Shown piece by piece: positions 1,548 to 38,193 of a stretch of DNA of 38,193 bases. The stretch's first letter is position 1; each line of letters opens with the position of its first letter. The notes below the pieces were generated by a model that saw only the letters and a list, made by a program, of their open reading frames with translations, was not told where the DNA came from and did not search any database. Both the position numbers and the translations under genes were made by a program. The stretch is from a virus, in IMG/VR virus record IMGVR_UViG_3300034073_002656, positions 1 through 38,193 of that record, one strand, 5' to 3'.

Positions 1548-1574
1548 TTTGTCTTAAAAACACAGTTTTGTAAC
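1548..1574 (+). promoter_or_regulatory. Late promoter-like 27-nt motif, copy A
   Basis: First of four ungapped copies (others at 8423, 21480 and 34949). 16 of 27 positions are invariant: TTTG at 1-4, C6, AAA at 9-11, A13, CAG at 16-18, T20, T22 and TA at 24-25. Copy A matches copy B at 23 of 27 positions. It ends 14 bases before the ATG of the first head gene, with an AAGGA Shine-Dalgarno between. It does not fit sigma70 spacing. A phage-specific promoter or activator site is inferred. Confidence 0.65.
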
Positions 1575-2511: not shown

Positions 2512-2738
2512 TGGAATTAAAGGACTTAAAAGAATTATTAAAAGTCCTTCGTGACAAAGGCGTTACCGAGTACGAATGCAACGGGGTAAAGCTAAAGCTT
2601 TCTGAAGAAGTGCCTGTTTCTAAATACAAAAGAAGGCAGGAAGCGGAAGAGCAGATTGAACCTGAAATGACCGAAGAAGAAAGGTTGTTTTATTCTGCGA
2701 TTCACCCCATGACACCGATTGAAGAAACCGCACAATGA
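2511..2738 (+). CDS. Small acidic hypothetical protein
   Basis: A 75-aa protein with a helical start (MELKDLKELLKVLRDKGV) and an acidic tail (EEQIEPEMTEEER). It is coupled to the upstream gene by TAATG and to the portal by an ATGA overlap. Small acidic proteins directly ahead of portals are common in short-tailed phages, but none with a known role is recognised here. Confidence 0.72.
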   Translation: MELKDLKELLKVLRDKGVTEYECNGVKLKLSEEVPVSKYKRRQEAEEQIEPEMTEEERLFYSAIHPMTPIEETAQ

Positions 2739-5700: not shown

Positions 5701-5821
5701 TCACAATCCAAACAAAAAATCAAAACTTACCCAACAAGAATTTATTAATAAAAGAAATGAATTAGCAGAAAAAATAAACAAACTGGTTGAAACCAGAAGA
5801 AAGTTTAGAAGAAAAGACTAA
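2735..5821 (+). CDS. Portal protein with a 380-residue C-terminal extension
   Basis: A 1028-aa protein. Residues 1 to about 600 look like the portal (head-tail connector) of short-tailed phages: the long helical core includes LISSVTDTLVSRLTQDRPVP, ILTDALVQGTGVLKIHE and a segment around QKPSGLNSGEAQRVYQDI. A Pro/Met-rich linker (about 605-645) leads to an AEGGMVEDQK motif at 646-655 and a Lys/Glu-rich, coiled-coil extension (about 740-1028). Family portals are usually some 500-730 aa, so the extension is unusual. A run of ten A (4695-4704) sits exactly at the start of the extension. Losing one A gives TAG at 4713-4715 and gaining one gives TGA at 4717-4719, so slippage would release a normal-sized portal of about 660 aa. 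Confidence 0.85.
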   Translation: MSLKTTLKSNSGRATRVYKTTDMGMQLNKGYRWWEAKSATERKNQLLATVAFLKQGQKFRTEETRVYSQLYTGKPMVGYAGPAFSKVSNPLNIAPGRPTYNLISSVTDTLVSRLTQDRPVPVFLTDNGDYKERNLAKKLNDFILGEFYRTKAYEIGEQILTDALVQGTGVLKIHETMDKKVGIERVLPIELFVDLEESRFGDPRRMYQVKYMDRAMVESAFPKHKAMAAAADKGILEQSDASRSVADLVVVVEGWALPSGEDTNDGWHSIVCSEGELFGEKWTKQKFPFVFLHHKKRPEGFWAQGVAESLMGTQLTLNDLLITIAQSIRTMGVPRVFVEEGSKCNTASFVNKVGTVIKYRGAAPIFATSPSNAPELYEERARLIQFGFEQEGLSMLSATSQKPSGLNSGEAQRVYQDINSDRFASLERRYTNFYVDLAYQLIDKALDIAERDGSYTTIFTDRKKGCKQIELPKIKMLKDPFVIQAYVQSSLPKDPAGRLQKVTEMIQSNMVTIQEGRRLLDFPDLGQVETLANASEERIYYILDEIIENGVYEGPDQFMNLAKATEIVTQYINLYSTCKLEEEKVQMLRDFFAEIQDLQMAAMPQPPMMPPEPSNQLAVPQGLPTSELLPMGPGPAPTGGGIPMMAEGGMVEDQKKNPSLAESDLPGWLQGIRQTTVPAFQQASETLQNVPGLDFATSAFNLTSPAAYAFTEAGKPEPQGGILEQISHVPGAQAAANIPTGWKVLRGEGKSAFDIARKYQDEIKKIEQEIAAKNLKGEAKEMAMMDIIARERKLEQFEGMKEKAKQAFEVTRTPEEIAAKAQKDALDRVTNIGGGTVESLLKQGKPIDEVAKEVMSWRKRNLEEQLNRWKKDLSNPRSSADEVKYAKRRLEELTQELKDFENVPLDQVERELIEDQRRWELITGETKKINEKRAELRAAEEERLKNVVVPIEIEGGPKPKGRPSTKQVDPYEKEWTKLNTEKSKLYDDFHNPNKKSKLTQQEFINKRNELAEKINKLVETRRKFRRKD

Positions 5822-8333: not shown

Positions 8334-8380
8334 TGCCGATCGAGTTTGAGCGACTCGACAGGATGCGTAAAGAACACTAG

Positions 8381-8425
8381 CTTAAGGCGGGAAGGGATAA
8401 AACCTTTCTCGCCTTAAGTTTTTTT
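8381..8425 (+). terminator. Rho-independent terminator after the capsid gene
   Basis: CTTAAGGCG (8381-8389) pairs perfectly with CGCCTTAAG (8410-8418), with a further partly paired inner stem (GGAAGG/CCTTTC), and is followed by seven T. It closes the 1589-8333 unit. The downstream promoter-like motif B overlaps the T-run. Confidence 0.92.
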
Positions 8426-8449
8426 GGCTTAAAAATACAGTTGTGTAAG
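8423..8449 (+). promoter_or_regulatory. Late promoter-like 27-nt motif, copy B
   Basis: Second copy of the motif family described at 1548; it matches copy A at 23 and copy C at 22 of 27 positions. It begins inside the T-run of the capsid terminator and lies 85 bases upstream of the 8535 gene, so it should restart transcription directly after termination. Confidence 0.65.
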
Positions 8450-8534
8450 CCCAAGATGTCCTTGGGATACTACTCGCCGGGGTTTCTGCCTACCTCGTTG
8501 CTGGGTTTATTAAAGGCAGACAAGGACACTCATC
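8450..8534 (+). promoter_or_regulatory. Foldable 5' leader able to hide or expose the Shine-Dalgarno of gene 8535
   Basis: Two exclusive folds are visible. In one, CCCAAG (8450-8455) pairs with CTTGGG (8461-8466) as a local hairpin. In the other, TGTCCTTG (8457-8464) pairs with CAAGGACA (8521-8528), burying the AAGGA Shine-Dalgarno (8522-8526) 8 bases before the ATG, and the neighbouring TCTGCC (8485-8490) pairs with GGCAGA (8515-8520). The local hairpin forms first during transcription and would leave the ribosome site open. No known riboswitch class is recognised. Confidence 0.55.
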
Positions 8535-21479: not shown

Positions 21480-21506
21480 TTTGGCGCAAAAAACCAGTTG
21501 TATAAG
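21480..21506 (+). promoter_or_regulatory. Late promoter-like 27-nt motif, copy C
   Basis: Third copy of the family described at 1548, matching copy B at 22 of 27 positions. It begins at the base after the stop of the ejection protein gene and precedes the fibre cluster. In this copy the 3' part reads TTGTATAAG, closest of the four to an extended -10 box. Confidence 0.65.
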
Positions 21507-21510
21507 TAGG

Positions 21511-21534
21511 CCCACAAGGCCCTAACCCACAAGG
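21511..21534 (+). repeat. Direct repeat CCCACAAGG in the leader of the fibre cluster
   Basis: CCCACAAGG occurs at 21511-21519 and 21526-21534, 15 bases apart. The second copy holds the Shine-Dalgarno (AAGGA at 21531-21535) of the gene at 21545. The first may be a decoy ribosome site or a chance repeat. Confidence 0.45.
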
Positions 21535-21544
21535 ACGGTTCAAA

Positions 21545-21931
21545 ATGTCTTCAAGAGTTCTTTTAAAGCCCCAAAAAGTCATGGACGCTGTAGTAGCTGA
21601 TCAGAATAGAACAAGCCTTGTTACAAACGTAAATATGATTTCGCTAGCCTCCTACACAATTGCCTGGGGAAATAGCGTTACCGGCGATTTTGATGTTGAA
21701 GTATCTAACGACTACATTGCACCCGTCGGCGTGCAACCAGAGCAAATAGATTCTGGTACCTGGGTTCCTGTTACTCTTAGCACTCCAGTCTCGGCTTCTG
21801 GAACCGCTGACACAGCTTTTATTGATGTTGCTTTAACCGGAGCAGCTTACATCCGATTGAAATTTACTGATACAAGCGGCGGCGCTGGCACTGGTACAAT
21901 TACGGCAACACTTGCAGGGAAGGTTAGCTAA
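21545..21931 (+). CDS. Small beta-sandwich fibre-associated protein, copy 1
   Basis: A 128-aa protein with an all-beta pattern ending in DSGTWVPVTLS, AAYIRLKFTDTSGG and GTGTITATLAGKVS. The same end pattern recurs in the 118-aa protein at 24877, and both sit directly ahead of a long fibre gene, so they look like paralogues. A role as fibre-binding chaperone, collar or carbohydrate-binding module is possible; no family is recognised. Coupled to the fibre gene by TAATG. Confidence 0.65.
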   Translation: MSSRVLLKPQKVMDAVVADQNRTSLVTNVNMISLASYTIAWGNSVTGDFDVEVSNDYIAPVGVQPEQIDSGTWVPVTLSTPVSASGTADTAFIDVALTGAAYIRLKFTDTSGGAGTGTITATLAGKVS

Positions 21932-24864
21932 TGCCTACTTACTCAAAATATTCTCCTGTTGGCGGCGGGGGCGGTGGAATTACATCTATTAATGGCGATA
22001 CAACAGCGGCTCAATTGATTGTCGGCGGTACAGGAATCAGCGTTGCAACAGCCCTTGGCACAACGACAATTACAAATACTTCTCCTGCTCCAGCTACTGG
22101 AAACCTAACAGAAACGATTTCAAGTATTTTAACCATTACTGGCGGAACGGGTGCAGTAGTGGGAAGCGGTACCACGATTCAAGTATTGCAAGCAGGAGCT
22201 GCGCAAGACGGGTTTTTATCTTCAACCGACTGGAACACTTTTAACAACAAGCAAAATACTCTTTCTTTTGGAAATCTTACCGAAACAGTTTCTTCTGTTT
22301 TAACAATTACTGGCGGAACCGGAGCGGTCATTGGTTCTGGCACAACCATTCAAATGTCACAGGCTGGGGCCGGAAGTGACGGCTATTTATCAAGCACCGA
22401 TTGGAATACTTTTAATAATAAACAACCTGCTGGAACTTACGTCACAAGCGTTACTGGAAGCGCTCCTATTGCAAGTTCTGGGGGTACAACTCCCGCAATT
22501 TCAATTACTCAATCGGGCGTAGCAACTGACGGATATTTATCTTCAACAGATTGGAATACGTTTAACAATAAAGCAACCTATCCTGCTTTTTCTGATGACC
22601 AAGTTTTGTATTCAACAACCACTGGCGCTGAATGGAGAATTGTAGGAACCGGATCAACTACAGCTGCATATCCGACTGATACTGTTATTGTGGGAAGAAC
22701 TAAGCCCGCTGGATTAACCGGAGTTGGAAACTTTATTATTGGTGATGGGGCTCTTAATTCTTTAACCACACAAACAAACAACATAGCAATCGGCAAAAAT
22801 GCCGCTTCCTTGGTTGCAAACACAGGCCTTGTTGGAAACACGATTGCCATTGGTTTTGAAGCGTTAAAAAATGCAACCGCTTCTTATCAAGATGCTTCTG
22901 CCTCTTCTTTTGGATCGATTTGTATTGGATATCAGGCTGGCTCTAACATAACTTTATCATACGGAAATCTATATGTTGGTTATCAAGCTGGTAGAGGAGC
23001 GGGTAGACACGATGCCAATGTAGCGGTTGGACACTTATCTGGAAATGCAGGAGCCGGTAACACTTGTGTCGGAACTGGCGCCGGATTAAGCTCTACTAAT
23101 TTTTCGATGACTGCAATTGGATTCTCAGCTTTACGAGCTGCGAACGCTTTATCTAATTCTGCTTTGGGTTCTCAAGCGGGAAGGGCCATAACTAGCGGAA
23201 GTCACAATACGTTAATCGGAACAGACACCTGTTTTTATACCGGAGCAGGTGGAATTAATTTAACAACCGGAAATTCTAACACCTTGCTTGGAACTGAATC
23301 GGCAACGTTAGCAAATAATTCTGTTGGTGCAATTTCCCTGGGCAGAAGAGCTGCGGCAGCCTCAAAAGAGTTTGCTGTTGGTTCTGATGCATATGACATA
23401 GAAACCGTTCTACTTGGTCGAGGCGGAGCATCTCAAACTGTAGCCAATGCTGTAAAGATTCAGACCATGCGTGCTTCTGGAACAGATACCAGCATGACCG
23501 TTGGTACTTTAACCCTTGCTGGAGCACAGGGAACGGGCACGGGGGCAGGGGGAGATGTTATCATTGCAACAGCTCCTGCAGGCGCTTCTGGATCTTCTCT
23601 TAATTCTCATGTGGATAGATTAAAAGTTACTGCAAGCGGAGAAACTCAACTTCTAGGCTCAACCTCTGGTTATGTAGGTCTTTCATCTCCTGCGGCCCCA
23701 ACTTCTTATTCTTTGGTTCTTCCAAGTGCTCAAGGCGCTGCAAGTTCGGTTCTCACAAACGACGGTTCTGGAAACTTAAGCTGGACCGCTGCTTCATCAC
23801 CTTCACTTCAAACATATTTTGGCGATGGCTCTGACGGTTCTTTAACCGTGACTACATCAAGCACAACAAGCGGGCCGCTTGTTAGTGGCGCACTAACCAG
23901 AGATGCTTATTTTGATAATTTAACTATTTCCGGCTCTGGGCAAATTTTTACAAATGGCTGGAGAATTTACGTTAGGGGCACTCTTGATATAACTAATGCT
24001 GGTACTTTTGCAATTAATTACACTGGATTTAATGGCGTAGATGCACTGACAAATACCGGCGGTTCCGCCCCAGTAGCTCAAGGAAATGCTGGTTTTGTAG
24101 CGGGTAATTACCAGGGAAAAGCAGGCACAAACGGAACGACGGGAGCGGGTTCTGCTGGAGTTTCTGGCACTGGGCCTATTGCTGGAAATAGCGGTGGTGC
24201 TGGTCTTGGTGGGCCGGGCGGAAGTGGTGCCGCGGGTTCTGGGGGATCGGCTGGGACCGCCCCGCCAAGTCCGGGGCGAGCGATTATAAGAAAACAAACA
24301 GATTTGCTTTTAGCAATTAGTTCAATTGGCCCACTCGCTCTTGCTGGGGGGGCTGTTGGAGGAAGTGGGGCGAGCGGAGCGGGAAATGGGTCTTCGGGTG
24401 CTGGCGGTGGCGGTGGAGGTTCTGGAAACAGTGGAGGCGTCGTTTACATTGCTGCAAATGAAATTGATCGGGGCGCAAGCACTGCTGCTGGAGCAATTAA
24501 TGCAAGGGGGGGGAGTGGCGGAGATGGCGGTAACATTGCCGGTTCCAACTGTGGCGGTGGCGGCGGCGGTGGAGGAAGTGGCGGAGGTTATGTTTATTTG
24601 TATTACGCAAGCTTAGCGGGAAGCACTGCAACAAATGCGATTATTGTGAGCGGGGGAGACGGCGGTGATGGCGGAAACGGTGTTGGGACTGGAACCGGGG
24701 GCACTGGAGGATCTGGCGGCGGCGGTGGATGTATTTTAATTTTGGATTTATCAACCGGATCTGCAACAAGCGTTGAAGGAACCGCCGGAAGCGTTGGAAC
24801 CGGACCCTCTGGAACGCTAGGCGGATCGGGTGGAGCCGGAGCAACAACACAAGCAAACTTGTAA
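21931..24864 (+). CDS. Large tail fibre with repeat shaft, YadA-head-like repeats and polyglycine tip
   Basis: A 977-aa protein. Residues about 45-215 contain three repeats, each ending DG(Y/F)LSSTDWNTFNNK, the first two preceded by NLTET-(I/V)-SS...LTITGGTGAV. Residues about 250-490 hold YadA-head-like repeats (NIAIGKNAASL, SICIGYQAGSNI, NVAVGHLSGNAG, NTLIGTD), as in left-handed beta-roll adhesins. Then follow a block shared with the 25237 fibre (NAVKIQTMRASGTDT; AGGDVIIATAP) and an end of about 240 residues in Gly-rich runs. The tip resembles polyglycine-II adhesin tips such as those of T-even gp38-type adhesins in style only. Poly-G runs at 24346-24352 and 24506-24513 lie inside the tip-coding part. 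Confidence 0.82.
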   Translation: MPTYSKYSPVGGGGGGITSINGDTTAAQLIVGGTGISVATALGTTTITNTSPAPATGNLTETISSILTITGGTGAVVGSGTTIQVLQAGAAQDGFLSSTDWNTFNNKQNTLSFGNLTETVSSVLTITGGTGAVIGSGTTIQMSQAGAGSDGYLSSTDWNTFNNKQPAGTYVTSVTGSAPIASSGGTTPAISITQSGVATDGYLSSTDWNTFNNKATYPAFSDDQVLYSTTTGAEWRIVGTGSTTAAYPTDTVIVGRTKPAGLTGVGNFIIGDGALNSLTTQTNNIAIGKNAASLVANTGLVGNTIAIGFEALKNATASYQDASASSFGSICIGYQAGSNITLSYGNLYVGYQAGRGAGRHDANVAVGHLSGNAGAGNTCVGTGAGLSSTNFSMTAIGFSALRAANALSNSALGSQAGRAITSGSHNTLIGTDTCFYTGAGGINLTTGNSNTLLGTESATLANNSVGAISLGRRAAAASKEFAVGSDAYDIETVLLGRGGASQTVANAVKIQTMRASGTDTSMTVGTLTLAGAQGTGTGAGGDVIIATAPAGASGSSLNSHVDRLKVTASGETQLLGSTSGYVGLSSPAAPTSYSLVLPSAQGAASSVLTNDGSGNLSWTAASSPSLQTYFGDGSDGSLTVTTSSTTSGPLVSGALTRDAYFDNLTISGSGQIFTNGWRIYVRGTLDITNAGTFAINYTGFNGVDALTNTGGSAPVAQGNAGFVAGNYQGKAGTNGTTGAGSAGVSGTGPIAGNSGGAGLGGPGGSGAAGSGGSAGTAPPSPGRAIIRKQTDLLLAISSIGPLALAGGAVGGSGASGAGNGSSGAGGGGGGSGNSGGVVYIAANEIDRGASTAAGAINARGGSGGDGGNIAGSNCGGGGGGGGSGGGYVYLYYASLAGSTATNAIIVSGGDGGDGGNGVGTGTGGTGGSGGGGGCILILDLSTGSATSVEGTAGSVGTGPSGTLGGSGGAGATTQANL

Positions 24865-25236: not shown

Positions 25237-27132
25237 ATGCCTTTTATCAATATTCCTTCCTATGGTTCTGCAAGCTGGAAAGATGCTGTAGCTGATCCGG
25301 CAAGTTTACCTACTAGTGGAAATGAGGTGGGTGACGCACGAGTAACAGAATCCACAAGCGAGATTTATGTTTGGGACGGAAGCGCCTGGCAAAATGTAGG
25401 AGGAAGCGCTTCTGCAATCACCGCTCTTACAAATGATGTAACTGCTACAGGACCCGGAAGCGTTGCTGCTACTGTTGCATTTGTTGGAGGAGAAACCGCT
25501 GCTGATGTAGCAACAAGCGTGCAAGACACACAGGCCGCAACTGATTTATCAACTGTATCAACAATCGTAAAAAGAGATGCATCTGGAGAAACTTCTTTAG
25601 ACGGTCTTAATTTAGATGGGTCTGTAAGCGGTTCAATTAATATTAAAGCTGCTGATACAACCACAGGTTACACAATTAAAATGCCCAATGCTCAAGGGGG
25701 CGCAACAACTTATTTAGAAAACGATGGCAGCGGCAATTTGTCTTGGGGAACCGTATCTGCCGGAATGACAAATCCCATGACTACTCAAGGGGATTTAATT
25801 ACTGGCGGAGCTGCTGGAGCTCCTCAAAGACTGGGATTAGGAACGACTGAATATGTTTTGGCAGCAGGGGCTACTGATCCTTACTGGACAATCGAAGGCG
25901 TTAAAACTGGTTATCCTACTGATACTGTAGTTCTTGGAAGAACCAAGCCAACAAGCATAACAGGGCAGAGAAACATAATTCTTGGAACAGGAACTTGTGG
26001 GAACGCCTTAACCACAGGATCTGACAACGTACTAATTGGAGATGATGTATCGCCAACAAGCACGACTTTACCCCAATCCGTTGCTATTGGTTCTTTGTCT
26101 AGGGTAACTAACAATAATGGCGGCAGCGTATCCATTGGGTATGATGCACAAGCCGGGTTGGGTTCTGTTTGCGTTGGAATTTCCACAAGAACTTGGGGCG
26201 GAAACGATGCAAATGGGGTTTCAATAGGAAGGCTTGCAAACTCTGGCGCTGGCTCTTGTGCTGTGGGCGGACAAGCTAATGCTTCTGCCAATTTTACTCT
26301 TTCCGTGGGAACGCAATCAACGTCGTCTGGCTCTGCCACAACTGCACTTGGATACGGCGCGCAAGCAAATTCAACCGCATCTATTGCGATTGGAAGATCT
26401 GCAAGCACAAACTCAATCGCAAACTGTTTGGCAATTGGCTCTTCTACTGCATCAATTTCCACTATGTATTTGGGCAGGGGGGCGGCAGATCAAACAACTG
26501 CCAACGCCGTAAAAATCCAAACCATGCGAGCTTCCGGCACTGACACAGATATGTCAGTTGGAACGCTTACTATTGCAGGAGCGCAAGGAACTGGAACCGG
26601 TGCTGGCGGTGATGTGATCATTGCTACTGCTCCCCCTGATGTTGCGTCAGGATCAACATTAAACGCGCATTTTGAAGTAATGAGAATTACTGACGACGGT
26701 CTAGTTGGTATTCAAACTTCTACCCCTAGTGATCCATTAACTGTACAGGGGTCAATCAATTACACAACTGGAATTTCTGATTATAAAATCAGTCCCGCAC
26801 ATCATGATCACGGGACCGAAACCACAAACTTTACGATTAATTGGTCAACCTCCCCTGTTCAAACGGTTACACTAAACGGAACAACAAACGCAGTTGTTAC
26901 AATGAATAACCCGCTACAGGGCGGCGCTTATGTATTAAGAATTATTCAGGGCGCAACTCCTGGCACAATTGATTTTACTGCTGGAAGTTTTGCTGATGCT
27001 GTTTGGCCCGGCGGTACTGCACCTACTTTGTCTGGTTCAACTGGAAATGTAGACATTATTAATTTACTCTACATTGATGATGGCGGGGGAACGGTTACAT
27101 ACTACGGAACCTTTGCAACAGATTTTAGCTAA
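25237..27132 (+). CDS. Second tail fibre with YadA-head-like repeats
   Basis: A 631-aa protein. The N-terminal domain (residues 1-55, GDARVTESTSEIYVWDGSAWQNV) is typical of phage fibre attachment segments. The middle shares PTDTVVLGRTKP and the NAVKIQTMRASGTDT/AGGDVIIATAP block with the fibre at 21931, separated by YadA-like repeats (SVAIGSLS, SVSIGYDAQ, ASIAIGRSAS). The C-terminus is a different beta domain (TVTLNGTTNAVVTMNNPLQGGAYVLRI) in place of the polyglycine tip. So the two fibres share a shaft but carry different tips. Coupled to the next gene by TAATG. Confidence 0.82.
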   Translation: MPFINIPSYGSASWKDAVADPASLPTSGNEVGDARVTESTSEIYVWDGSAWQNVGGSASAITALTNDVTATGPGSVAATVAFVGGETAADVATSVQDTQAATDLSTVSTIVKRDASGETSLDGLNLDGSVSGSINIKAADTTTGYTIKMPNAQGGATTYLENDGSGNLSWGTVSAGMTNPMTTQGDLITGGAAGAPQRLGLGTTEYVLAAGATDPYWTIEGVKTGYPTDTVVLGRTKPTSITGQRNIILGTGTCGNALTTGSDNVLIGDDVSPTSTTLPQSVAIGSLSRVTNNNGGSVSIGYDAQAGLGSVCVGISTRTWGGNDANGVSIGRLANSGAGSCAVGGQANASANFTLSVGTQSTSSGSATTALGYGAQANSTASIAIGRSASTNSIANCLAIGSSTASISTMYLGRGAADQTTANAVKIQTMRASGTDTDMSVGTLTIAGAQGTGTGAGGDVIIATAPPDVASGSTLNAHFEVMRITDDGLVGIQTSTPSDPLTVQGSINYTTGISDYKISPAHHDHGTETTNFTINWSTSPVQTVTLNGTTNAVVTMNNPLQGGAYVLRIIQGATPGTIDFTAGSFADAVWPGGTAPTLSGSTGNVDIINLLYIDDGGGTVTYYGTFATDFS

Positions 27133-30011: not shown

Positions 30012-30103
30012 CAATTTATGGCTGGGTCGGACCGGCTCGAACGGTCATAAACCGAGTTAACAGCTCGGGGCTTTACCAATTAAGCTACAACCCAGTGACA
30101 ATT
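30008..30103. repeat. 9-bp direct repeats flanking the tRNA gene
   Basis: GTGACAATT occurs at 30008-30016 and again at 30095-30103, one copy on each side of the tRNA, 87 bases apart. The arrangement looks like a target duplication or recombination scar, but 9 bases alone can arise by chance. Confidence 0.6.
30019..30094 (-). tRNA. tRNA-Asn (anticodon GTT)
   Basis: On the minus strand the 76 bases fold as a complete tRNA. The acceptor stem is TGGGTTG with CGACCCA, including one T-G wobble, followed by discriminator G and an encoded CCA. The D arm has GCTTAATTGGTAAAGC. The anticodon stem CCGAG/CTCGG closes the loop CTGTTAA. The T arm GACCG-TTCGAGC-CGGTC is standard. The anticodon is GTT (Asn). 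It is the only gene found on the minus strand, between the lysis and early blocks, and lies antisense to any transcript reading from the lysis genes into 30171. Confidence 0.95.
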
Positions 30104-30129
30104 ATTGCGTCTGGATTTTAATTATCGAG

Positions 30130-30140
30130 TTTTGTATAAT
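30130..30140 (+). promoter_or_regulatory. Extended -10 promoter candidate for the early block
   Basis: TTTTGTATAAT (30130-30140) contains TG-n-TATAAT-like extended -10 spacing with a perfect TATAAT (30135-30140), 30 bases before the ATG of the Cas4-like gene. The -35 region is weak (TGGATT at 30112), as tolerated with an extended -10. It differs from the late motif and would be read by host RNA polymerase. Confidence 0.6.
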
Positions 30141-30170
30141 ACTTCAAGCCGGAAGCGAGGTCGGCAACAC

Positions 30171-31046
30171 ATGAAGCTTACCAACAAATTAAACTTACCA
30201 GAACCGTTTGTAAGAGCGGTATCAGAAAAAACATACGACAATCAAGGCAGCTGGAGAACGGTCACAGAGCTTATCGGCCCTCCTAAAATTGCTGCATTAA
30301 AACGAAAACATGAAGAAGAAATTGAGGTAGACGCAAGTGAACTTGTTTACACTTTTCAGGGCGAAACCGCCCATGCGACGATTGAGCGCGCTGCCAAAAC
30401 AATGTGCAAAGAAGGTTGGCAAGCTGAAGAGAGATTGTTTAAGACGGTACAGGGAAAGAAGATATCGGGTGCTTACGATTTATACAATCCAAAGACCGGA
30501 GAATTGATTGATGTTAAAAACTCGACGGCCTGGAAAGCTAAGCGTGGAGAAGCTCCTATCGAGTGGGTGCAACAGTGTAACTTACTGGCGCATCTTATAC
30601 GCGAAAAAGGACACGACGTTACAAGCATACGAATTATTCTCATTATTAGAGATCATTCAAAACCTGAATCTAGGCGAGACCCTGAATATCCGCAAACTCC
30701 CGTTGTGCAACTCGAAATCCCAATCTGGACGGACGAAGAAGCAAAAGCGTTCCTTGAAGATAGAGTCAGACTTCACCTACTTGCTGAAACTGAAGAAGTG
30801 GAGTGTTCTCCCGAAGACCGATGGGCAAAGCCAACGATTTGGGCGATCAGGAAAAGAGGAACTGCCCGGGCAATACCCGGAGGGCTTTACGCCGACAAAG
30901 AAAAAGCCAAAGAAAAATTAGAGCAATTAGGTAACGCATACGAGATTGACTATCGCCCTGGAGAAAACACAAGATGCGCTCTCTACTGCCCCGTTGCTAA
31001 GTTTTGTGCGCAGTATCAAAAGCTATTGACACAGCAAGGCAAATAG
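30171..31046 (+). CDS. Cas4-like PD-(D/E)XK nuclease with iron-sulphur cysteines
   Basis: A 291-aa protein; ATG at 30171 is preferred since an upstream TTG (30105) would place the promoter inside the gene. The nuclease motifs are His68 in FQGETAHATIE, Glu87, Asp103 in SGAYDLY and Asp114-Val-Lys116 in GELIDVKNS. Four cysteines, Cys212 (EEVECSPEDRW) plus Cys269, Cys273 and Cys279 (RCALYCPVAKFC), have the spacing of the 4Fe-4S cluster in Cas4/AddB-type exonucleases. A role in recombination, DNA end processing or host DNA breakdown is expected. First gene of the early block; no CRISPR genes lie nearby. Confidence 0.85.
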   Translation: MKLTNKLNLPEPFVRAVSEKTYDNQGSWRTVTELIGPPKIAALKRKHEEEIEVDASELVYTFQGETAHATIERAAKTMCKEGWQAEERLFKTVQGKKISGAYDLYNPKTGELIDVKNSTAWKAKRGEAPIEWVQQCNLLAHLIREKGHDVTSIRIILIIRDHSKPESRRDPEYPQTPVVQLEIPIWTDEEAKAFLEDRVRLHLLAETEEVECSPEDRWAKPTIWAIRKRGTARAIPGGLYADKEKAKEKLEQLGNAYEIDYRPGENTRCALYCPVAKFCAQYQKLLTQQGK

Positions 31047-31190
31047 TGTTTGAAGCATTGTCCCATTGGTTCCGTAGTGCACAGGGCCAAAGGCGAATAG
31101 GCGTACCCGCGCCTTAAGAAATCTGGGGTAACGCATCTTGACCCGAATGCGGTTCTCAATCGGGTCTTAAAAACCTTTTATGGAGACATC
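31047..31190 (+). promoter_or_regulatory. Structured 144-base leader between the nuclease and the zinc-ribbon gene
   Basis: Several hairpins are visible: AGGCG-TACCCG-CGCCT (31099-31114), AACGCAT (31130-31136) with ATGCGGTT (31147-31154, one bulge), and GACCCGA (31140-31146) with TCGGGTC (31160-31166), the last followed by TTAAAAACCTTTT and then the ATG at 31191. The second and third overlap and cannot form together, an attenuator-like or riboswitch-like layout. No late motif is present and no known riboswitch is recognised. Confidence 0.45.
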
Positions 31191-31445
31191 ATGCAATTAA
31201 CTAATCTCGAGCGAGCTTTATTACGCGCTGCTAATGCGTTTATTCAGTCCTACAATGAATCGAAAGGGGACGGGCAAGGGGTAGGTAGCGGGTCACTTAA
31301 ACAAACGGCCCAAAGCGCTCCTACGCCAACTTCAAACGGAATCCCTGTTTGTAATATTCACGGCAAACCAAACCGACCAAGTAAAAAGGGCAATGGTTAC
31401 TATTGCTTAGATTGTTTCTTAGAGCGCAAGAACGCAAGGAACTAA
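31191..31445 (+). CDS. Small zinc-ribbon protein
   Basis: An 84-aa protein. The N-terminal helix (LTNLERALLRAANAFIQSY) is followed by a Ser/Gly/Thr linker and a metal-binding end, CNIHGKPNRPSKKGNGYYC-LDC, i.e. C-x2-H...C-x2-C. Such small fingers are frequent in phage early regions and usually bind DNA or protein. It follows the structured leader and is separated from the next gene by three bases. Confidence 0.7.
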   Translation: MQLTNLERALLRAANAFIQSYNESKGDGQGVGSGSLKQTAQSAPTPTSNGIPVCNIHGKPNRPSKKGNGYYCLDCFLERKNARN

Positions 31446-31448
31446 GAA

Positions 31449-31691
31449 ATGAAAAACCAAACTGGCTATTTTGTTTACTTTGATGCGGTCGACGATTGGC
31501 AGATAGTTCACGAAACAGAAATACCCCTTGATAAGCTTAAAGAAGCATTCAAAACCCAAAAGTGGTTTGAGGATTATGAAACCGCAGCTGACTATGTAAT
31601 CTTTCAATTAAACTTTTACAGCAGGGTAATTGCTAAGCACAAAAAAGAGCTACAGAAATCCATAAATGGAATCCATAACCCTAACAATTAA
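31449..31691 (+). CDS. Hypothetical early protein (80 aa)
   Basis: An aromatic-rich alpha/beta protein (GYFVYFDAVDDWQIVHET; KWFEDYETAADYVIFQLNFY). Its final 26 bases overlap the start of the replication gene in another frame, suggesting coupled translation. No family is recognised. Confidence 0.65.
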   Translation: MKNQTGYFVYFDAVDDWQIVHETEIPLDKLKEAFKTQKWFEDYETAADYVIFQLNFYSRVIAKHKKELQKSINGIHNPNN

Positions 31692-32415
31692 AAACTGGAA
31701 GAAATACCAGGTTAGGGGAGATTACAAATCCCCTTGGTGGTTTGCTTTTCACAACAAATTTTGGCGTACAGAAAAGTACGATATTTTAACCCACGAACAG
31801 AAGTGGGCATGGATTTGTTTGCTCAGTCATGCCTCAGAACAGCGTTATAAATCGTCTATAACAATACGCGTTGATTGGTTTTGCAGGACCGCAAATGTTG
31901 AAAAAGCATCATTTTTAGGGGCATTAAAAAAGCTAATAAATTTAGATGTTTTGGAGTGCAAAGAAGAAATCTGTACGGAATCTGTACAGAATCTTGCCAG
32001 AATCTCTCCAGAAAATGGATCGTCCACAATTAAACAATCTAACAATTTAACAATTAAACAATATAACAATAATACAAAAAACAATTCTTTTAGAGTTTGC
32101 GTCGAACCAAAACAAGTTTTGGTTACAACGCCTACTGTTATTAAAAATGATCTTTCATTTTTTATTAATAAAAAGCTTTTAGAACTTTATCCGCAGGAGT
32201 ACATCGATCGTGAAAAAGTCAAAATGGAGATGTGGCTTGCTACCAACGGACATAAAAAGCCCAAATCCGATCGGGGTATGGTTCGGTTTGTAACAGGGTG
32301 GTTATCCCGGGGATGGGAGACTTATCGGCGCGGGCTTTCATCTAACAAACCAAAAGAACGCGGTATTGCAGAAATTTTAGCGGAGGATGAACAAAATGGA
32401 TCTATCGACCTATGA
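31666..32415 (+). CDS. Replication initiator candidate (winged-helix, lambda O-like organisation)
   Basis: A 249-aa protein. Residues about 10-105 (WWFAFHNKFWRTEKYDILTHEQKW, ITIRVDWFCRTANVEKASFLGALKKL) have the layout of the winged-helix N-terminus of phage replisome organisers. A low-complexity linker (about 106-148: TIKQSNNLTIKQYNNNTKNN) is encoded by two direct-repeat arrays. The C-terminal region (LYPQEYIDREKVKMEMWLATNG, GMVRFVTGWLSRGWETYRRG) is a conserved end in such proteins. The putative origin lies inside the gene, as in lambda O. The helicase-loader candidate follows with a 20-base overlap. Confidence 0.75.
   Translation: MESITLTIKNWKKYQVRGDYKSPWWFAFHNKFWRTEKYDILTHEQKWAWICLLSHASEQRYKSSITIRVDWFCRTANVEKASFLGALKKLINLDVLECKEEICTESVQNLARISPENGSSTIKQSNNLTIKQYNNNTKNNSFRVCVEPKQVLVTTPTVIKNDLSFFINKKLLELYPQEYIDREKVKMEMWLATNGHKKPKSDRGMVRFVTGWLSRGWETYRRGLSSNKPKERGIAEILAEDEQNGSIDL
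31968..32011 (+). repeat. Four tandem 11-bp repeats (iteron candidate)
   Basis: Units begin at 31968, 31979, 31990 and 32001 and share AATCT followed by six bases that end C-R/A-G: AATCTGTACGG, AATCTGTACAG, AATCTTGCCAG and AATCTCTCCAG. The 11-base period is not a multiple of three, so protein-level selection alone would not keep it in register. They lie inside the initiator gene. Confidence 0.8.
32025..32072 (+). repeat. Six tandem 8-bp A+T-rich repeats
   Basis: ACAAT-centred units begin at exact 8-base intervals, 32025, 32033, 32041, 32049, 32057 and 32065. Each is AACAAT plus two bases, the first having C for A; another AACAAT lies at 32080. The block is almost pure A/T plus the central C and could be the DNA-unwinding element beside the 11-bp iterons. 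Confidence 0.8.
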
Positions 32416-32878
32416 TATTGAAATGCAAAGATTGATGAGCCAATGGCCACACTCGTACTCGGAGCAAAGAAGAAAGATTTTTTTTAATGCCTTACGAGAT
32501 GTATCAAACCACGATTTTAGGGAAGCGGTAACTCATTGCCTTGCGACGTGTAGATCAGCTCCCCTGCTCGGAGAACTGACAGAAGCCGTCCATGTTGCGA
32601 GAACAAATTATATACAACAAAAAAGAATGGACGATGCCGCCCGGTCGATGTTTGATGGCATCCCAGAAACCAACTGGGCGGACAGGGAATTTGTGGATAG
32701 GTGTATGCAGCTTGTGAATGACAAGCTTAGCAATAAAATTACCTCGAAACAATTTTACCAGGGTTGCGATTTGTTAGATCAAGCAGCGCTGTTGTACAAA
32801 AATAATAAAAAAGGCCCGAATAAAAAACCGCCCGAGAAAAGAAAAGATCCGTACAAAGACGACGATGCAACAATTTAA
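32396..32878 (+). CDS. Helicase-loader candidate
   Basis: A 160-aa protein. The ATG at 32396 is nine bases from GCGGAGG and is preferred to the ATG at 32387, which abuts it. The N-terminal half is helical (MSQWPHSYSEQRRKIFFNAL; SNHDFREAVTHCLATCRS; LLGELTEAV), a pattern seen in small phage helicase loaders/inhibitors of the G39P type; the C-terminus is Lys/Pro/Asp-rich. Its place directly after the initiator supports the call. No ATPase motif is present. Confidence 0.6.
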   Translation: MDLSTYDIEMQRLMSQWPHSYSEQRRKIFFNALRDVSNHDFREAVTHCLATCRSAPLLGELTEAVHVARTNYIQQKRMDDAARSMFDGIPETNWADREFVDRCMQLVNDKLSNKITSKQFYQGCDLLDQAALLYKNNKKGPNKKPPEKRKDPYKDDDATI

Positions 32879-33071
32879 AACCGTGCACATAATTCGCAGC
32901 ATTTTGAAAGAAGCACGCATTCCATGGTACCGAATTCAGTACAAACTTATGGATGAAAAAGAATGGGTGTTGTTAATAAAGAGTGCCGCTAACCACATGG
33001 ATAGATTAAATTATCCAAACGAAACAAAAAAAATAATTAGGCAATTTATTTTCGATTACGAAAAAAACTAG
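32865..33071 (+). CDS. Small hypothetical early protein (68 aa)
   Basis: Its ATG overlaps the end of the loader gene by 14 bases. It is helical and basic (HIIRSILKEARIPWYRIQYKL; KKIIRQFIFDYEKN), has no recognised domain, and may bind nucleic acid or a replication partner. Confidence 0.62.
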   Translation: MQQFKTVHIIRSILKEARIPWYRIQYKLMDEKEWVLLIKSAANHMDRLNYPNETKKIIRQFIFDYEKN

Positions 33072-33114
33072 TAGACAAAACTAAAATCATCGCCCAACAT
33101 TTTTTGTTCAAGCG

Positions 33115-33474
33115 ATGAGAAGCAACCTGAAATACCGCAGCAAGAGGGTTAATCACGAAGGATTTTCCTTTGCCTCCCAATTAGAAGCCGCAGTTTATCA
33201 GCACCTAAAACTTCGTGAAAAGTGCGGCGAAATAAAAGACATTCAAAATCAAGATCATGTTTATCTAACCGACGCCCGAATTTGTTACATCCCGGACTTT
33301 AAATTTTTTGACATATCTCGAGACGAGTTTTCCTGGGCCGAAGCAAAAGGATTTGAAACAGACGTGTGGAAAATCAAAAAAAGACTTTGGCAACATTACG
33401 GTCCAGGAAGGCTTGAGATTTACAAAGGCAGCGCAAAACGAGTGACGCTATTTGAAACGGTGATTCCAAAATGA
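33115..33474 (+). CDS. DUF1064-type PD-(D/E)XK endonuclease (resolvase-like)
   Basis: A 119-aa protein starting KYRSKRVNHEGFSFASQLEA, close to the DUF1064 pattern. Active-site candidates are Glu24, Asp61 (YIPDFKF) and Glu76-Ala-Lys78 (WAEAKGFET), with a following KIKKRLWQHYG helix. Members of this fold are endonucleases similar to T7 gp3 that act on branched DNA, so a role in resolving recombination or replication intermediates before packaging is likely. The Shine-Dalgarno is weak. An ATGA overlap links it to the next gene. Confidence 0.8.
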   Translation: MRSNLKYRSKRVNHEGFSFASQLEAAVYQHLKLREKCGEIKDIQNQDHVYLTDARICYIPDFKFFDISRDEFSWAEAKGFETDVWKIKKRLWQHYGPGRLEIYKGSAKRVTLFETVIPK

Positions 33475-33686
33475 GCTTGGCCAATGAAATGAAATACTGG
33501 CAGTCACTTATTACTTTTAGCGAAGAAGCTTGTTGCAGAAGCAGTCATGAGTATTACAATTCAGCTTTGAAAATAATTCCAAAACCTGACGAGTACGTTT
33601 GCGAAAGAGAAAGGGCGTGGAGAAATTATGTAAGAAAGCGCGACAACAATCCGCGTTTTCCGTTCGACAGGAAGTGGAAAGAATGA
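33471..33686 (+). CDS. Small hypothetical early protein (71 aa)
   Basis: Overlaps the nuclease stop (ATGA). Helical, with a CC pair and an Arg-rich end (CERERAWRNYVRKRDNNPRF). No family is recognised. Confidence 0.6.
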   Translation: MSLANEMKYWQSLITFSEEACCRSSHEYYNSALKIIPKPDEYVCERERAWRNYVRKRDNNPRFPFDRKWKE

Positions 33687-33820
33687 AGAAAAGACGCGAA
33701 CACATGAAGGTTGCTGACAAGGTAAAAAGAATATGCCTAAGATGCTGTAAACATTTTTTGTCGTTGCACAAACACAATCGGCTTTGTGATTCGTGCGCGA
33801 CTAAACAAGACTACGAGTGA
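33683..33820 (+). CDS. Small zinc-finger protein (45 aa)
   Basis: The ATG at 33683 overlaps the previous stop (ATGA) and follows GTGGAAAGA; a longer reading from 33599 would lie mostly inside the previous gene. It has a classic phage zinc ribbon, ICLRCCKHFLS followed by RLCDSC, i.e. C-x2-C...C-x2-C, with a basic N-terminus. Likely a DNA-binding regulator or accessory protein. Confidence 0.72.
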   Translation: MKKRREHMKVADKVKRICLRCCKHFLSLHKHNRLCDSCATKQDYE

Positions 33821-33827
33821 GGAAATT

Positions 33828-34046
33828 ATGAGCGAAGAAAAAAAGTTAGTGCCCTTAAAAGTTGTTGTAGACGCAGCAACTCTTGATCCAGAAACCGGCA
33901 AAGTTGAAGTGCTAAGTGGATTAGAAAAAATTTTGATTGAGCAGCTGGTCAGAGAAATCGGGGCTCTTTCAAACCAAGTAAAAGACCTGCAAGAAAAACT
34001 AAAGCCCGTTGAAACAAAAGAAGAAGATAAAGGCGAGCAACTGTGA
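33828..34046 (+). CDS. Small acidic coiled-coil protein (72 aa)
   Basis: The ATG at 33828 follows GAGTGAGGA and is preferred to the upstream frame extension at 33786. Residues 24-60 form a helix with coiled-coil features (EKILIEQLVREIGALSNQVK). No function is recognised. The stop overlaps the GTG start of the next gene. Confidence 0.65.
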   Translation: MSEEKKLVPLKVVVDAATLDPETGKVEVLSGLEKILIEQLVREIGALSNQVKDLQEKLKPVETKEEDKGEQL

Positions 34047-34309
34047 GCATATTTAAAAAAGAAAAAAAAGAAGAAACGCTGCAAGAAGTGGAGCAAGCTT
34101 TTAGCGAGCTTCAGTTTGCAGTTGGCCAATATTATTATTTAGCGCACATCAAAAGCGAAGAAGCCAATCAGTATCAGGACAAGGCAAATGAGGCGGCTGT
34201 TCAAATGCAAAGATTAGCGCAAAAAGGATTGGCGTTAAGAAAACGAATTGAAAGCGAAGTAAAAGAAACAATCGAGAAGGGACAAAAAGTTGAAAGCCCG
34301 CTTAACTAA
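34043..34309 (+). CDS. Helical hypothetical protein (88 aa)
   Basis: GTG start overlapping the previous stop. It is entirely helical and charged (EEVEQAFSELQFAVGQYYYL; NEAAVQMQRLAQKGLALRKR), with the look of a small coiled-coil dimer. Function unknown. Confidence 0.62.
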   Translation: MSIFKKEKKEETLQEVEQAFSELQFAVGQYYYLAHIKSEEANQYQDKANEAAVQMQRLAQKGLALRKRIESEVKETIEKGQKVESPLN

Positions 34310-34628
34310 ATTATTAATTTGGTTGAATTCTTTTATTCCTGAAAGACTTCCTCAAGGAATGACCGAGTTTAACCGATGGGTGGAAGAAATTAGTGAGCTA
34401 AGTGGCTTACCAATTAACGACAAGCTAAAAAAAGTTATCGGCACTTTGATTCTGCAATTGCCCCCGCAAGTGGCTTATGTCCCAAAAAGACACGTTGCCA
34501 ATCTTGTAAAAAAGGCCGCTGCAAATCAAGTGAGCGTCGAGGTTTTAAATCTCATCGATGAAAAACAAAAACAACAAAGTGACGCTGCAACAACTGACCA
34601 AAATCTGGGACAAGAAACTAAAGGATGA
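34290..34628 (+). CDS. Hypothetical early protein (112 aa)
   Basis: TTG start after GAGAAGGGA, overlapping the previous gene by 20 bases. The segment GMTEFNRWVEEISELSGLPINDKLKKVIGTLILQLPP resembles a helical domain common in small phage early proteins. The last 71 bases are shared, in another frame, with the HTH gene at 34558. Confidence 0.62.
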   Translation: MKARLTKLLIWLNSFIPERLPQGMTEFNRWVEEISELSGLPINDKLKKVIGTLILQLPPQVAYVPKRHVANLVKKAAANQVSVEVLNLIDEKQKQQSDAATTDQNLGQETKG

Positions 34629-34962
34629 TGGCTTTGTCGACATCGAAAACCGCCAAACAGGATTGTTAAATACCTGGAGCGGAAAATTCTTTTACGGCAC
34701 AGATACCACATTTGCCGAAAAGATAAACAGAGAAGCAATGAGGCGCTTTGGTTCAACCCACAAAGAATCTGAGGCTGAGTATTTTAGGCTCGCAAGCCAT
34801 TGCTTACATGAGCAAGAATTCAAATCCGTCCGTCATAGAATTATCTGGCAGCTCCATGCTGAGGGTTATAGTTACAACGAAATCGCTAAAGAATTAAATA
34901 CTACCACAAGAAAAGTTAGATACGCGATTGAGATGATGGCAAAGGCTTTTTGTCTCAAATAA
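34558..34962 (+). CDS. Sigma-region-4/ArpU-like HTH protein, candidate late-gene activator
   Basis: A 134-aa protein. Residues about 92-131 form a helix-turn-helix of sigma-factor region 4 style (HRIIWQLHAEGYSYNEIAKEL followed by NTTTRKVRYAIEMM). The N-terminal 90 residues are helical and basic with no further domain. Length, HTH at the C-terminus and position at the end of the early block, upstream of terS, match the RinA/ArpU late regulators of phages. The late motif D overlaps its stop codon. Direct regulation of the four motifs is inferred, not shown. Confidence 0.72.
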   Translation: MKNKNNKVTLQQLTKIWDKKLKDDGFVDIENRQTGLLNTWSGKFFYGTDTTFAEKINREAMRRFGSTHKESEAEYFRLASHCLHEQEFKSVRHRIIWQLHAEGYSYNEIAKELNTTTRKVRYAIEMMAKAFCLK

Positions 34963-34975
34963 CCAGCTTTGTAGC
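34949..34975 (+). promoter_or_regulatory. Late promoter-like 27-nt motif, copy D
   Basis: Fourth copy of the family described at 1548, matching copy A at 21 of 27 positions. It overlaps the last codons and stop of the HTH gene and ends 11 bases before the ATG at 34987. It would drive the block that ends with terS and terL. Confidence 0.62.
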
Positions 34976-34986
34976 AAAACAAAGCA

Positions 34987-35310
34987 ATGAAGCAACTAAT
35001 CACATATCGACCCCATCAAACAGACGACGAAGCATTCCTGTTTGCAACTTACCTAAAAAATAATTGGTACCGCCAAGAATCTAGCACCATGCTGCCTAAA
35101 AAGATTTGGATGTGGGCCCAGCACAAAAGATTAGAAAAAGTAATGAAAAACCAAGTAATTACAGTTGCTTGTTTAAAAGATGACCCTGATGTGATTTTGG
35201 GTTATGGGTTTTGGGATGAGGAGAGGCCTTTTACTTACATCAAGCTTGCTTGGAGAAGCGACAAATTAAATTTAGAAAAAGAACTAACTGAAAGGATAGA
35301 AAAGCCATGA
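34987..35310 (+). CDS. Truncated GNAT-like protein (107 aa)
   Basis: The sequence (ITYRPHQTDDEAFLFATYLKNNWY, VITVACLKDDPDVILGYGFWD, FTYIKLAWR) follows the N-terminal two thirds of a small acetyltransferase-like family seen in phages, but it ends shortly after the AWR strand and lacks the acetyl-CoA-binding part. It is probably a reduced, non-catalytic version. An ATGA overlap leads into the next gene. Confidence 0.65.
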   Translation: MKQLITYRPHQTDDEAFLFATYLKNNWYRQESSTMLPKKIWMWAQHKRLEKVMKNQVITVACLKDDPDVILGYGFWDEERPFTYIKLAWRSDKLNLEKELTERIEKP

Positions 35311-36930: not shown

Positions 36931-38193
36931 AGAAATCGCTTTATTCAAAGCGTTTCTTTCAAAGACAGAAAAGAAATCCTTCAACCTCGCAGATTTTTGT
37001 TTTGGTAAACAACTCGCGTTTGTGCAAGACCCATCGCCATTTGCCACGGCCGTTTGTAGTGTTAGGGCTGGAAAGACGGTCGGGTGTGCCGCTGACTTGG
37101 TTCACACGGCACTGGGGCGAGAAGGAATCGTGTGCTTGTATATTACACTTAATCGCCTGTCAGCTAAACGAATCATCTGGCCGGACCTACTTAGAATTTG
37201 CAGAGAATACAACTTAGGAGCAAAGATTAATGAATCTGAGTTATCACTTACGTTTCCAAACCGCTCAGTTATTTATATTTCTGGCGCTAAAGATAAATCT
37301 GAAATTGAGAAGTTTCGGGGTTTGGCTCTTGCACTTTGTTATATCGACGAATGCCAAGCTTTTAGGGATTACATCAGAGAACTTGTCGACGAAGTTATCG
37401 CGAAACGACTATTCGACTATGCTGGCCGTTTACGACTTATCGGAACTCCAGGCCCCGTCCCTGTTGGATATTTTTATGAATGCTCTGTATCGAAACAATG
37501 GTCGCATCACTACTGGACAATGTTTGACAACCCCTGGCTCCCAATCAAATCAGGGCTCAGCCATGAACAAATCCTGCAGCGAGAACTTGACAGAAAAGGT
37601 GTTACACGAGAAGACCCAAGCATCCAGCGAGAATGTTTCGGAAGATGGGCTTTTGATCCTAACTCGCTTGTCTTCAGATACAACGATTCATTAAATGATT
37701 ATGCAGACCTTCCACATTATGGAACTAGTTGGAATTATGTTATTGGGTGCGATTTGGGGTATGACGATAGCGACGCTATGGCTGTACTTGGCTGGAATGA
37801 TTCAGACCCAAAACTGTACTTGGTTGAAGAAGTGGTTAAAAACAAACAAGGAATCACAGAATTTGCCTCCCAACTCGACGCACTTATTAAGAAATATTCT
37901 CCACAAAAAGTAGTGGTAGACACCGGCGGTCTTGGAAAAAAGATTACAGAAGAAATTACAAGGCGTTACTCCATTCCCCTTGCGCCCGCTGAGAAGCAAA
38001 GAAAGTTTGAATACATTGAGCTATTAAACGATGCGCTTCGTACGCAAAGGTTTATGGCTAAAAAGAAATCGAGATTTGCTGAAGACAGTAAGCTTTTGGA
38101 ATGGGACCGGGATGATCCAAATCCTGATAAATTAAAGATAAAAGACACGTTTCACTCAGACATTTGCGACGCGGTTCTTTATGCATTTAGAGA
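36908..38193 (+). CDS. terL: Terminase large subunit, N-terminal 428 residues (continues at 247-394)
   Basis: The packaging motor ATPase and nuclease. The ATG at 36908 lies inside terS. The ATPase shows Walker A SVRAGKTV (51-58), Walker B LCYIDE (143-148) and coupling motif LIGTPGP (177-183). The nuclease domain has Asp282 (GCDLGYDDSD), Asp338 (VVVDTGG) and Asp418/Asp421 (HSDICDAV). The gene has no stop before the window ends and resumes in frame at base 2/247, giving 477 aa in total. The mismatch at 38066 makes this copy KKKS where the left copy has KKES. Confidence 0.95.
   Translation, partial: MEQHLSNEEIALFKAFLSKTEKKSFNLADFCFGKQLAFVQDPSPFATAVCSVRAGKTVGCAADLVHTALGREGIVCLYITLNRLSAKRIIWPDLLRICREYNLGAKINESELSLTFPNRSVIYISGAKDKSEIEKFRGLALALCYIDECQAFRDYIRELVDEVIAKRLFDYAGRLRLIGTPGPVPVGYFYECSVSKQWSHHYWTMFDNPWLPIKSGLSHEQILQRELDRKGVTREDPSIQRECFGRWAFDPNSLVFRYNDSLNDYADLPHYGTSWNYVIGCDLGYDDSDAMAVLGWNDSDPKLYLVEEVVKNKQGITEFASQLDALIKKYSPQKVVVDTGGLGKKITEEITRRYSIPLAPAEKQRKFEYIELLNDALRTQRFMAKKKSRFAEDSKLLEWDRDDPNPDKLKIKDTFHSDICDAVLYAFR
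37948..38193. repeat. Right copy of 246-bp terminal direct repeat
   Basis: Same sequence as 1-246 except A at 38066. Joining the copies gives a circle of 37,947 bp and restores one uninterrupted terminase gene. Confidence 0.97.

Follow-up and report, generated by a model that had tools for sequence, protein, structure and literature searches.

The window analysed here is the whole of IMG/VR record IMGVR_UViG_3300034073_002656 (positions 1–38,193), labelled G000 or W among the genomes compared. Its two ends overlap by 246 nt (1–246 and 37948–38193) and differ there by one mismatch or more, so that the window very probably represents a circularised phage genome of 37.9 kb. The two copies of this terminal repeat differ, with one terL residue being either K or E, and the overlap is therefore not a perfect assembly copy. 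The genes lie on the plus strand, in the order early block (30105–34962), GNAT-like gene, terS/terL, portal, capsid, tail and fibre. The early block contains an exonuclease, a DUF1064 resolvase and small proteins, and its last gene encodes a helix-turn-helix (HTH) protein. A search of GTDB genomes with the capsid protein found no relative, and the collections searched contain no close cultured member of the phage group. The features discussed below are as follows.

1548–1574, plus strand: candidate late site A (TTTGTCTTAAAAACACAGTTTTGTAAC), before the gene at 1589 and the portal/capsid genes
8379–8420, plus strand: strong intrinsic terminator (18 pairs) immediately ahead of site B
8423–8449, plus strand: candidate late site B (TTTGGCTTAAAAATACAGTTGTGTAAG), starting inside the T-tract of the intrinsic terminator that follows the capsid gene
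8450–8534, plus strand: structured and conserved 5′ leader following site B; it contains a stem, an H-type pseudoknot and an SD–anti-SD pairing
21480–21506, plus strand: candidate late site C (TTTGGCGCAAAAAACCAGTTGTATAAG), before the gene at 21545 and the tail-fibre genes
30135–30140, plus strand: perfect TATAAT with a weak −35, possibly an early promoter driving the block from exonuclease to HTH gene
34558–34962, plus strand: candidate late regulator of 134 aa, with an N-terminal W-x2-KL-x3-GF-xDIE motif and a C-terminal sigma-4/NarL-type HTH
34949–34975, plus strand: candidate late site D (TTTGTCTCAAATAACCAGCTTTGTAGC), overlapping the HTH stop codon (34960–34962) and preceding the GNAT-like/terS/terL operon

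The first-pass annotation described a 134-aa HTH gene with a copy of a late motif overlapping its end, and both are present as described. It also placed the gene between the replication genes and terS; the gene is indeed the last of the early block, with several genes between it and terS/terL. The promoter proposed at 30130 did not hold up as a general feature: the perfect TATAAT lacks a good −35, was missed by a consensus scan, and was found in only one relative (G001).

Several further observations concern the gene layout. A lone tRNA-Asn (30019–30094, minus strand) lies at the late/early boundary of this plus-strand genome, and similar sequence is found at the equivalent place in G001 and G021. 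In most carriers, distant ones included, the next gene after the HTH gene is the GNAT-like one (34987–35310 in the window), so that the two form a conserved gene pair. The portal ORF (2735–5821) is 1028 aa long and its best matches in relatives span only about 630–660 residues; the rest looks like a fused or variable domain. The capsid gene is apparently broken in at least one place in G021 (L105/L106), L134, L098, L062 and L068, where tblastn pieces lie about 130–190 nt apart, which suggests introns or other insertions. A YPTDT-V-GRTKP segment (22659–22742 and 25902–25985) is repeated between two fibre genes.

The HTH protein, P0001, is encoded by an ORF with an ATG start and is basic (pI 9.5). 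Its HTH matches PHROG 3855 “HTH DNA binding protein” (E = 8.5e-6), Pfam Sigma70_r4_2 (E = 4.6e-4; 20.2 bits, under the cut-off of 25.7) and the ECF-sigma superfamily (E = 0.003), all of these profile matches being under the curated cut-offs. The AlphaFold2 model has pLDDT above 90 over approximately residues 71–130, which contain the HTH, and lower confidence in the N-terminal half. VIA-align of the model, whose match list mainly covers residues 79–134, gave Z 9.1 to UPF0122 and Z 6–7 to sigma-4 and NarL/LuxR-type domains, these last two being tied. On the basis of the model, the C-terminal half is predicted to be a tetrahelical HTH of the sigma-4/NarL class, with the recognition helix at about residues 113–130; the assignment to sigma-70 region 4 draws on this fold class and on sub-threshold Pfam and NCBIfam matches, and the NarL type is equally close. 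P0001 has no match in Pfam or NCBIfam to sigma-70 region 2, the part of a sigma factor that contacts core polymerase and the −10 element; the N-terminal half is again the part modelled at lower confidence. Whole-protein Foldseek returned nothing at E ≤ 0.001, and cultured phages gave no match at E ≤ 1.

The fetched loci contain 36 members of the protein family, in which the N-terminal W-x2-KL-x3-GF-xDIE motif is conserved, and orthologs of the gene are equivalently placed in at least 10 related records. The protein evolves faster than its surroundings: between the window and G001 it is 60% identical, compared with 79% and 86% for its neighbours and 96% for the capsid protein. Profile searches recognised no other HTH protein in the early block that the genomes share.

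Sites A to D make up the highest-ranking intergenic repeat family in the window, with the consensus TTTGnCYYRAWTAnACAA..WTGTAA over approximately 19–27 bp and a dyad, TTTG...CAA, around site position 10. When each copy in turn is left out, it ranks first of 75,842 positions in the window. Within the window by itself the family scores 63 matches, where sampled shuffles reached at most 57 and random seeds taken from the real genome gave 62. As a sequence pattern the motif is therefore only modestly above chance in this one genome; it is made certain by comparison across genomes. Readings of the sites as sigma-54 (−24/−12) or sigma-70 (−35/−10) promoters were considered and rejected, the spacing and the invariant bases being unsuitable in both cases.

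Relatives were obtained from terL, capsid and HTH-profile scans of viral contigs, and the best of these were retrieved as whole records. Nine uncultured phage genomes, including the window, share the motif at equivalent gene boundaries, with 31 sites in total: four plus-strand sites in each of W, G001, G002, G021, G022 and G029, three in G003, and two in each of G004 and G030. In six genomes no intergenic repeat family other than terminal repeats outranks the motif. A site left out is ranked first by the other sites of its own genome in 23 of 27 cases, among roughly 50,000–78,000 positions, and the remaining four rank 2, 2, 4 and 12. The four-copy motif reported earlier is thus upheld by its synteny and by these ranks, which refute the notion of a chance similarity of AT-rich sequence, a notion to which the modest excess over shuffles on the window alone might have lent itself and which we now regard as negligible. 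A collection-wide scan with the exact pattern found only the same clade, together with coding or chance matches in unrelated phages, and nothing comparable came out of a de novo motif search in G026, G009, G016 and G024, distant genomes that carry the protein family.

Over the 31 sites, G4 and A13 are invariant, and C6 and C16 nearly so. The centre varies between genomes: ACACAG, ATACAG or AACCAG in the window, AACCAA in G001, TAAACAA in G002 and G003, mostly TAGACAA in G021, and TACACA in G022 except at site C. The clearest case is G029, with TTTGTCTCAATTACACAGTATTGAACC at A, TTTGTCTCAATTACACAATGTTGTAGC at B, TTTGTCTCAATTACACAATGTTGAGTA at C and ATTGTCTCAATTACACAAAAAAGAAGC at D. Syntenic copies of site D occur in G001, G002, G021, G022, G029, G030, L008 and L117. 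A reading of copy D as not conserved, which came from comparison with the window's letters only, was rejected: D changes along with the other sites of its genome. G003 and G004 keep the HTH gene and sites A and B (G003 also C) and have no D, and the gene and site D are therefore separable. The converse case, in which the motif is kept and the gene is absent, and which had been named as evidence against a link, was not found among the fetched relatives covering the region.

Concerted change was assessed with site registers set by eye at orthologous places, using G4 as the anchor, and with genomes permuted inside each site class (20,000 trials). In columns 11–18, within-genome identity was 0.854 compared with a permuted mean of 0.645 and a maximum of 0.759, and the result was the same without the window. 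For both columns 5–8 and columns 11–18, the observed within-genome similarity was never reached in 20,000 permutations (P ≤ 5e-5). The sites in each genome therefore evolve in concert, which implies a trans-acting phage factor: a shared reader is called for because independent drift of four unrelated promoters would not give concerted change.

The identity of this reader is indicated by covariation, a check that had been suggested in the first-pass annotation and that succeeded for the left half-site, columns 5–8, and failed for columns 11–18. Site distances in columns 5–8 correlate with those in a 13-residue stretch of the recognition helix (Mantel r = 0.62, P = 0.001), in a sample of only nine genomes and with the DK-x-RR/GCC association having been noticed before the test was run. 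They do not track terL, portal, g34290, GNAT or g5871, both neighbours being included in this set (r ≤ 0.23). By terL, portal and g5871, G003 and G004 form a sister pair, but their helices (LDKARRTIE and VRQVWYSIQ) and their sites differ, while a DK-x-RR helix and a GCCTT half-site are common to G003, G021 and G030. Columns 11–18 do not track the recognition helix (r = −0.08). The dyad around position 10 permits a dimer, and a second reader is also possible; the likeliest readers of the co-evolving columns 11–18 are a dimer that binds the second half of the dyad, or the N-terminal domain of the protein.

The behaviour of columns 11–18 also speaks for an alternative in which the sites do serve as late promoters or operators while the co-evolving factor is some other phage protein, such as a small early protein that escaped recognition, and the HTH protein has a different role. 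Several small early genes without assigned function are shared between the genomes. However, columns 5–8 track the helix and none of the other proteins compared, and no DNA-binding domain was recognised in the remaining shared early genes, with the exception of a zinc-ribbon-like ORF (33599–33820) in the window, which was not found in G002 or G003. We consider this alternative unlikely, though it deserves to be kept in mind.

The sequence behind the sites gives some indication of what they do. The terminator upstream of site B runs into the site, and therefore the genes behind B need their own start. A conserved stem begins right after the motif; the hairpin loop TCTGCC of the pseudoknot pairs with GGCAGA adjoining the Shine-Dalgarno, and a GTCCTTG/CAAGGAC anti-SD pairing is nearly invariant. 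The pseudoknot has a covariation score of 0.239, compared with at most 0.085 when slid, and was equalled in 0 of 500 shuffles. This leader had no match in Rfam at the gathering threshold, and it looks like a translational control element or a riboswitch-like RNA. At site C a short hairpin lies within a few bases downstream (21507–21545 in the window, and in relatives), its stem bases appear to change together as read from the unscored alignment, and the leader has a conserved AACCCACAAGGACG Shine-Dalgarno region. At site A, a Shine-Dalgarno lies 2–12 nt behind the motif in several genomes. If the leaders are transcribed from the sites, this anatomy suggests a transcription start at the right edge of the site, at around position 24–28, which would therefore place TTTGnC close to −24 and the centre around −10. 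Because the start would lie at the right edge of the motif, the site would not be an ordinary −35/−10 pair.

These features also help to weigh the proposal that the HTH protein recognises the sites as a repressor, or that they are other non-promoter elements (operators, nicking or packaging signals). The dyad TTTG...CAA with its invariant G4 and nearly invariant C16 would suit such a role, and operators could equally change in concert. However, the sites are always on the coding strand and just ahead of late units, at B right after a terminator, and conserved leaders start at the site. We therefore think this proposal improbable.

About as improbable is a role for the HTH protein in Q-like antitermination instead of initiation, with loading at four promoters that each have a Q-binding element. 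Q antiterminators with a sigma-4-like HTH (PHROG 79, “anti-termination protein Q-like”) control late genes, their HTH is weakly similar to that of P0001 (E = 0.006), the genome position is equivalent, and hairpins follow immediately after the sites. However, PHROG 79 is matched by only one of 12 family members, and the clear terminator is upstream of site B, not downstream. Q systems usually have a single late promoter with sigma-70 elements, whereas no conserved sigma-70 promoter elements were found around the sites described here.

Other phage regulators show partial similarity. PHROG 836 and 532 (“late transcriptional activator”) are similar in the HTH, with a best E of 2.6e-4 for PHROG 836, which is matched in five of 12 family members; the match in P0001 covers only the HTH (88–125) and leaves the W-x2-KL-x3-GF-xDIE part uncovered. 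The sigma-4-like phage regulator NF005385, “Positive control sigma-like factor”, which we take to be of the PBSX Xpf type, matches three of 21 family members (best E = 1.7e-4), but P0001 itself is not among its matches at E ≤ 1. The proposed class of HTH is supported by AlphaFold2 and VIA-align. For RinA/ArpU there was no counterpart in NCBIfam: none of the six families matched by P0001 at E ≤ 1 is a RinA/ArpU model. The Ltr/RinA late activators of staphylococcal phages are basic proteins of about 130 aa, encoded by the last gene of the early cluster and adjoining the late promoter (PMC13123087). P0001 resembles them in gene size, basic charge and position, being followed by site D. The described Ltr/RinA regulators act at one late promoter, in phage Phi13 P23, which has a TATA box and whose start is preceded by four direct repeats (PMC13123087); the window phage differs in having four scattered compact sites with no recognisable −10/−35. 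By analogy, the HTH protein may work like the RinA/Ltr activators, a functional likeness without a family match.

We propose, with a probability of roughly two in three, that the HTH protein is an early-to-late switch acting via the four late sites on the structural genes. The protein would be made from the early block; its sigma-4-like recognition helix would read the left half of the approximately 19–27 bp site; and it would bring RNA polymerase, presumably that of the host, to four late transcription units, namely terS/terL (D), portal/capsid (A), the head/tail genes after the capsid terminator (B), and the tail fibre and following genes (C). DNA binding by the protein and the promoter function of the sites are predicted from sequence comparison. 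Use of the host polymerase is presumed because no RNA polymerase gene was found: within the subset of window ORFs scanned with PHROGs, none matched an RNA polymerase family, the single-subunit (T7-like) type included. Counting for the switch are the plus-strand sites at matching gene boundaries and their recovery when left out, the concerted change, the helix covariation, the faster evolution of the HTH protein and its being the sole recognised HTH protein of the shared block, the terminator running into B, and the likeness to Ltr/RinA activators in size, charge and position. Counting against it are the sample of nine genomes, the site centre, which does not track the helix, the absence of D in G003 and G004, the distant carriers without the motif, and a geometry unlike that of known sigma-70 activator promoters. 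The early-to-late switch put forward in the first-pass annotation thus gains from the concerted sites and the covariation, while an ordinary −35/−10 architecture fits the leader anatomy poorly.

A more specific and decidedly speculative version, which we rate as rather unlikely, is that the protein is a minimal promoter-specificity factor that redirects the polymerase to compact promoters with a bipartite layout that no sigma-70 promoter shows. The sigma-4-like domain would then read TTTGnC some 24 bp before the start, and the N-terminal domain would read or open the co-evolving centre at the −10 position.

The early-to-late switch reading would supply candidate late promoter sequences and their regulator for a phage group that lacks close cultured members, and the leader behind site B adds a new structured RNA. 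The nine genomes form a natural series, with 31 sites and HTH protein variants that are 42–66% identical, in which a switch protein and its promoters appear to shift specificity together. Such natural pairs make it directly testable how one regulator shifts several essential promoters at once.
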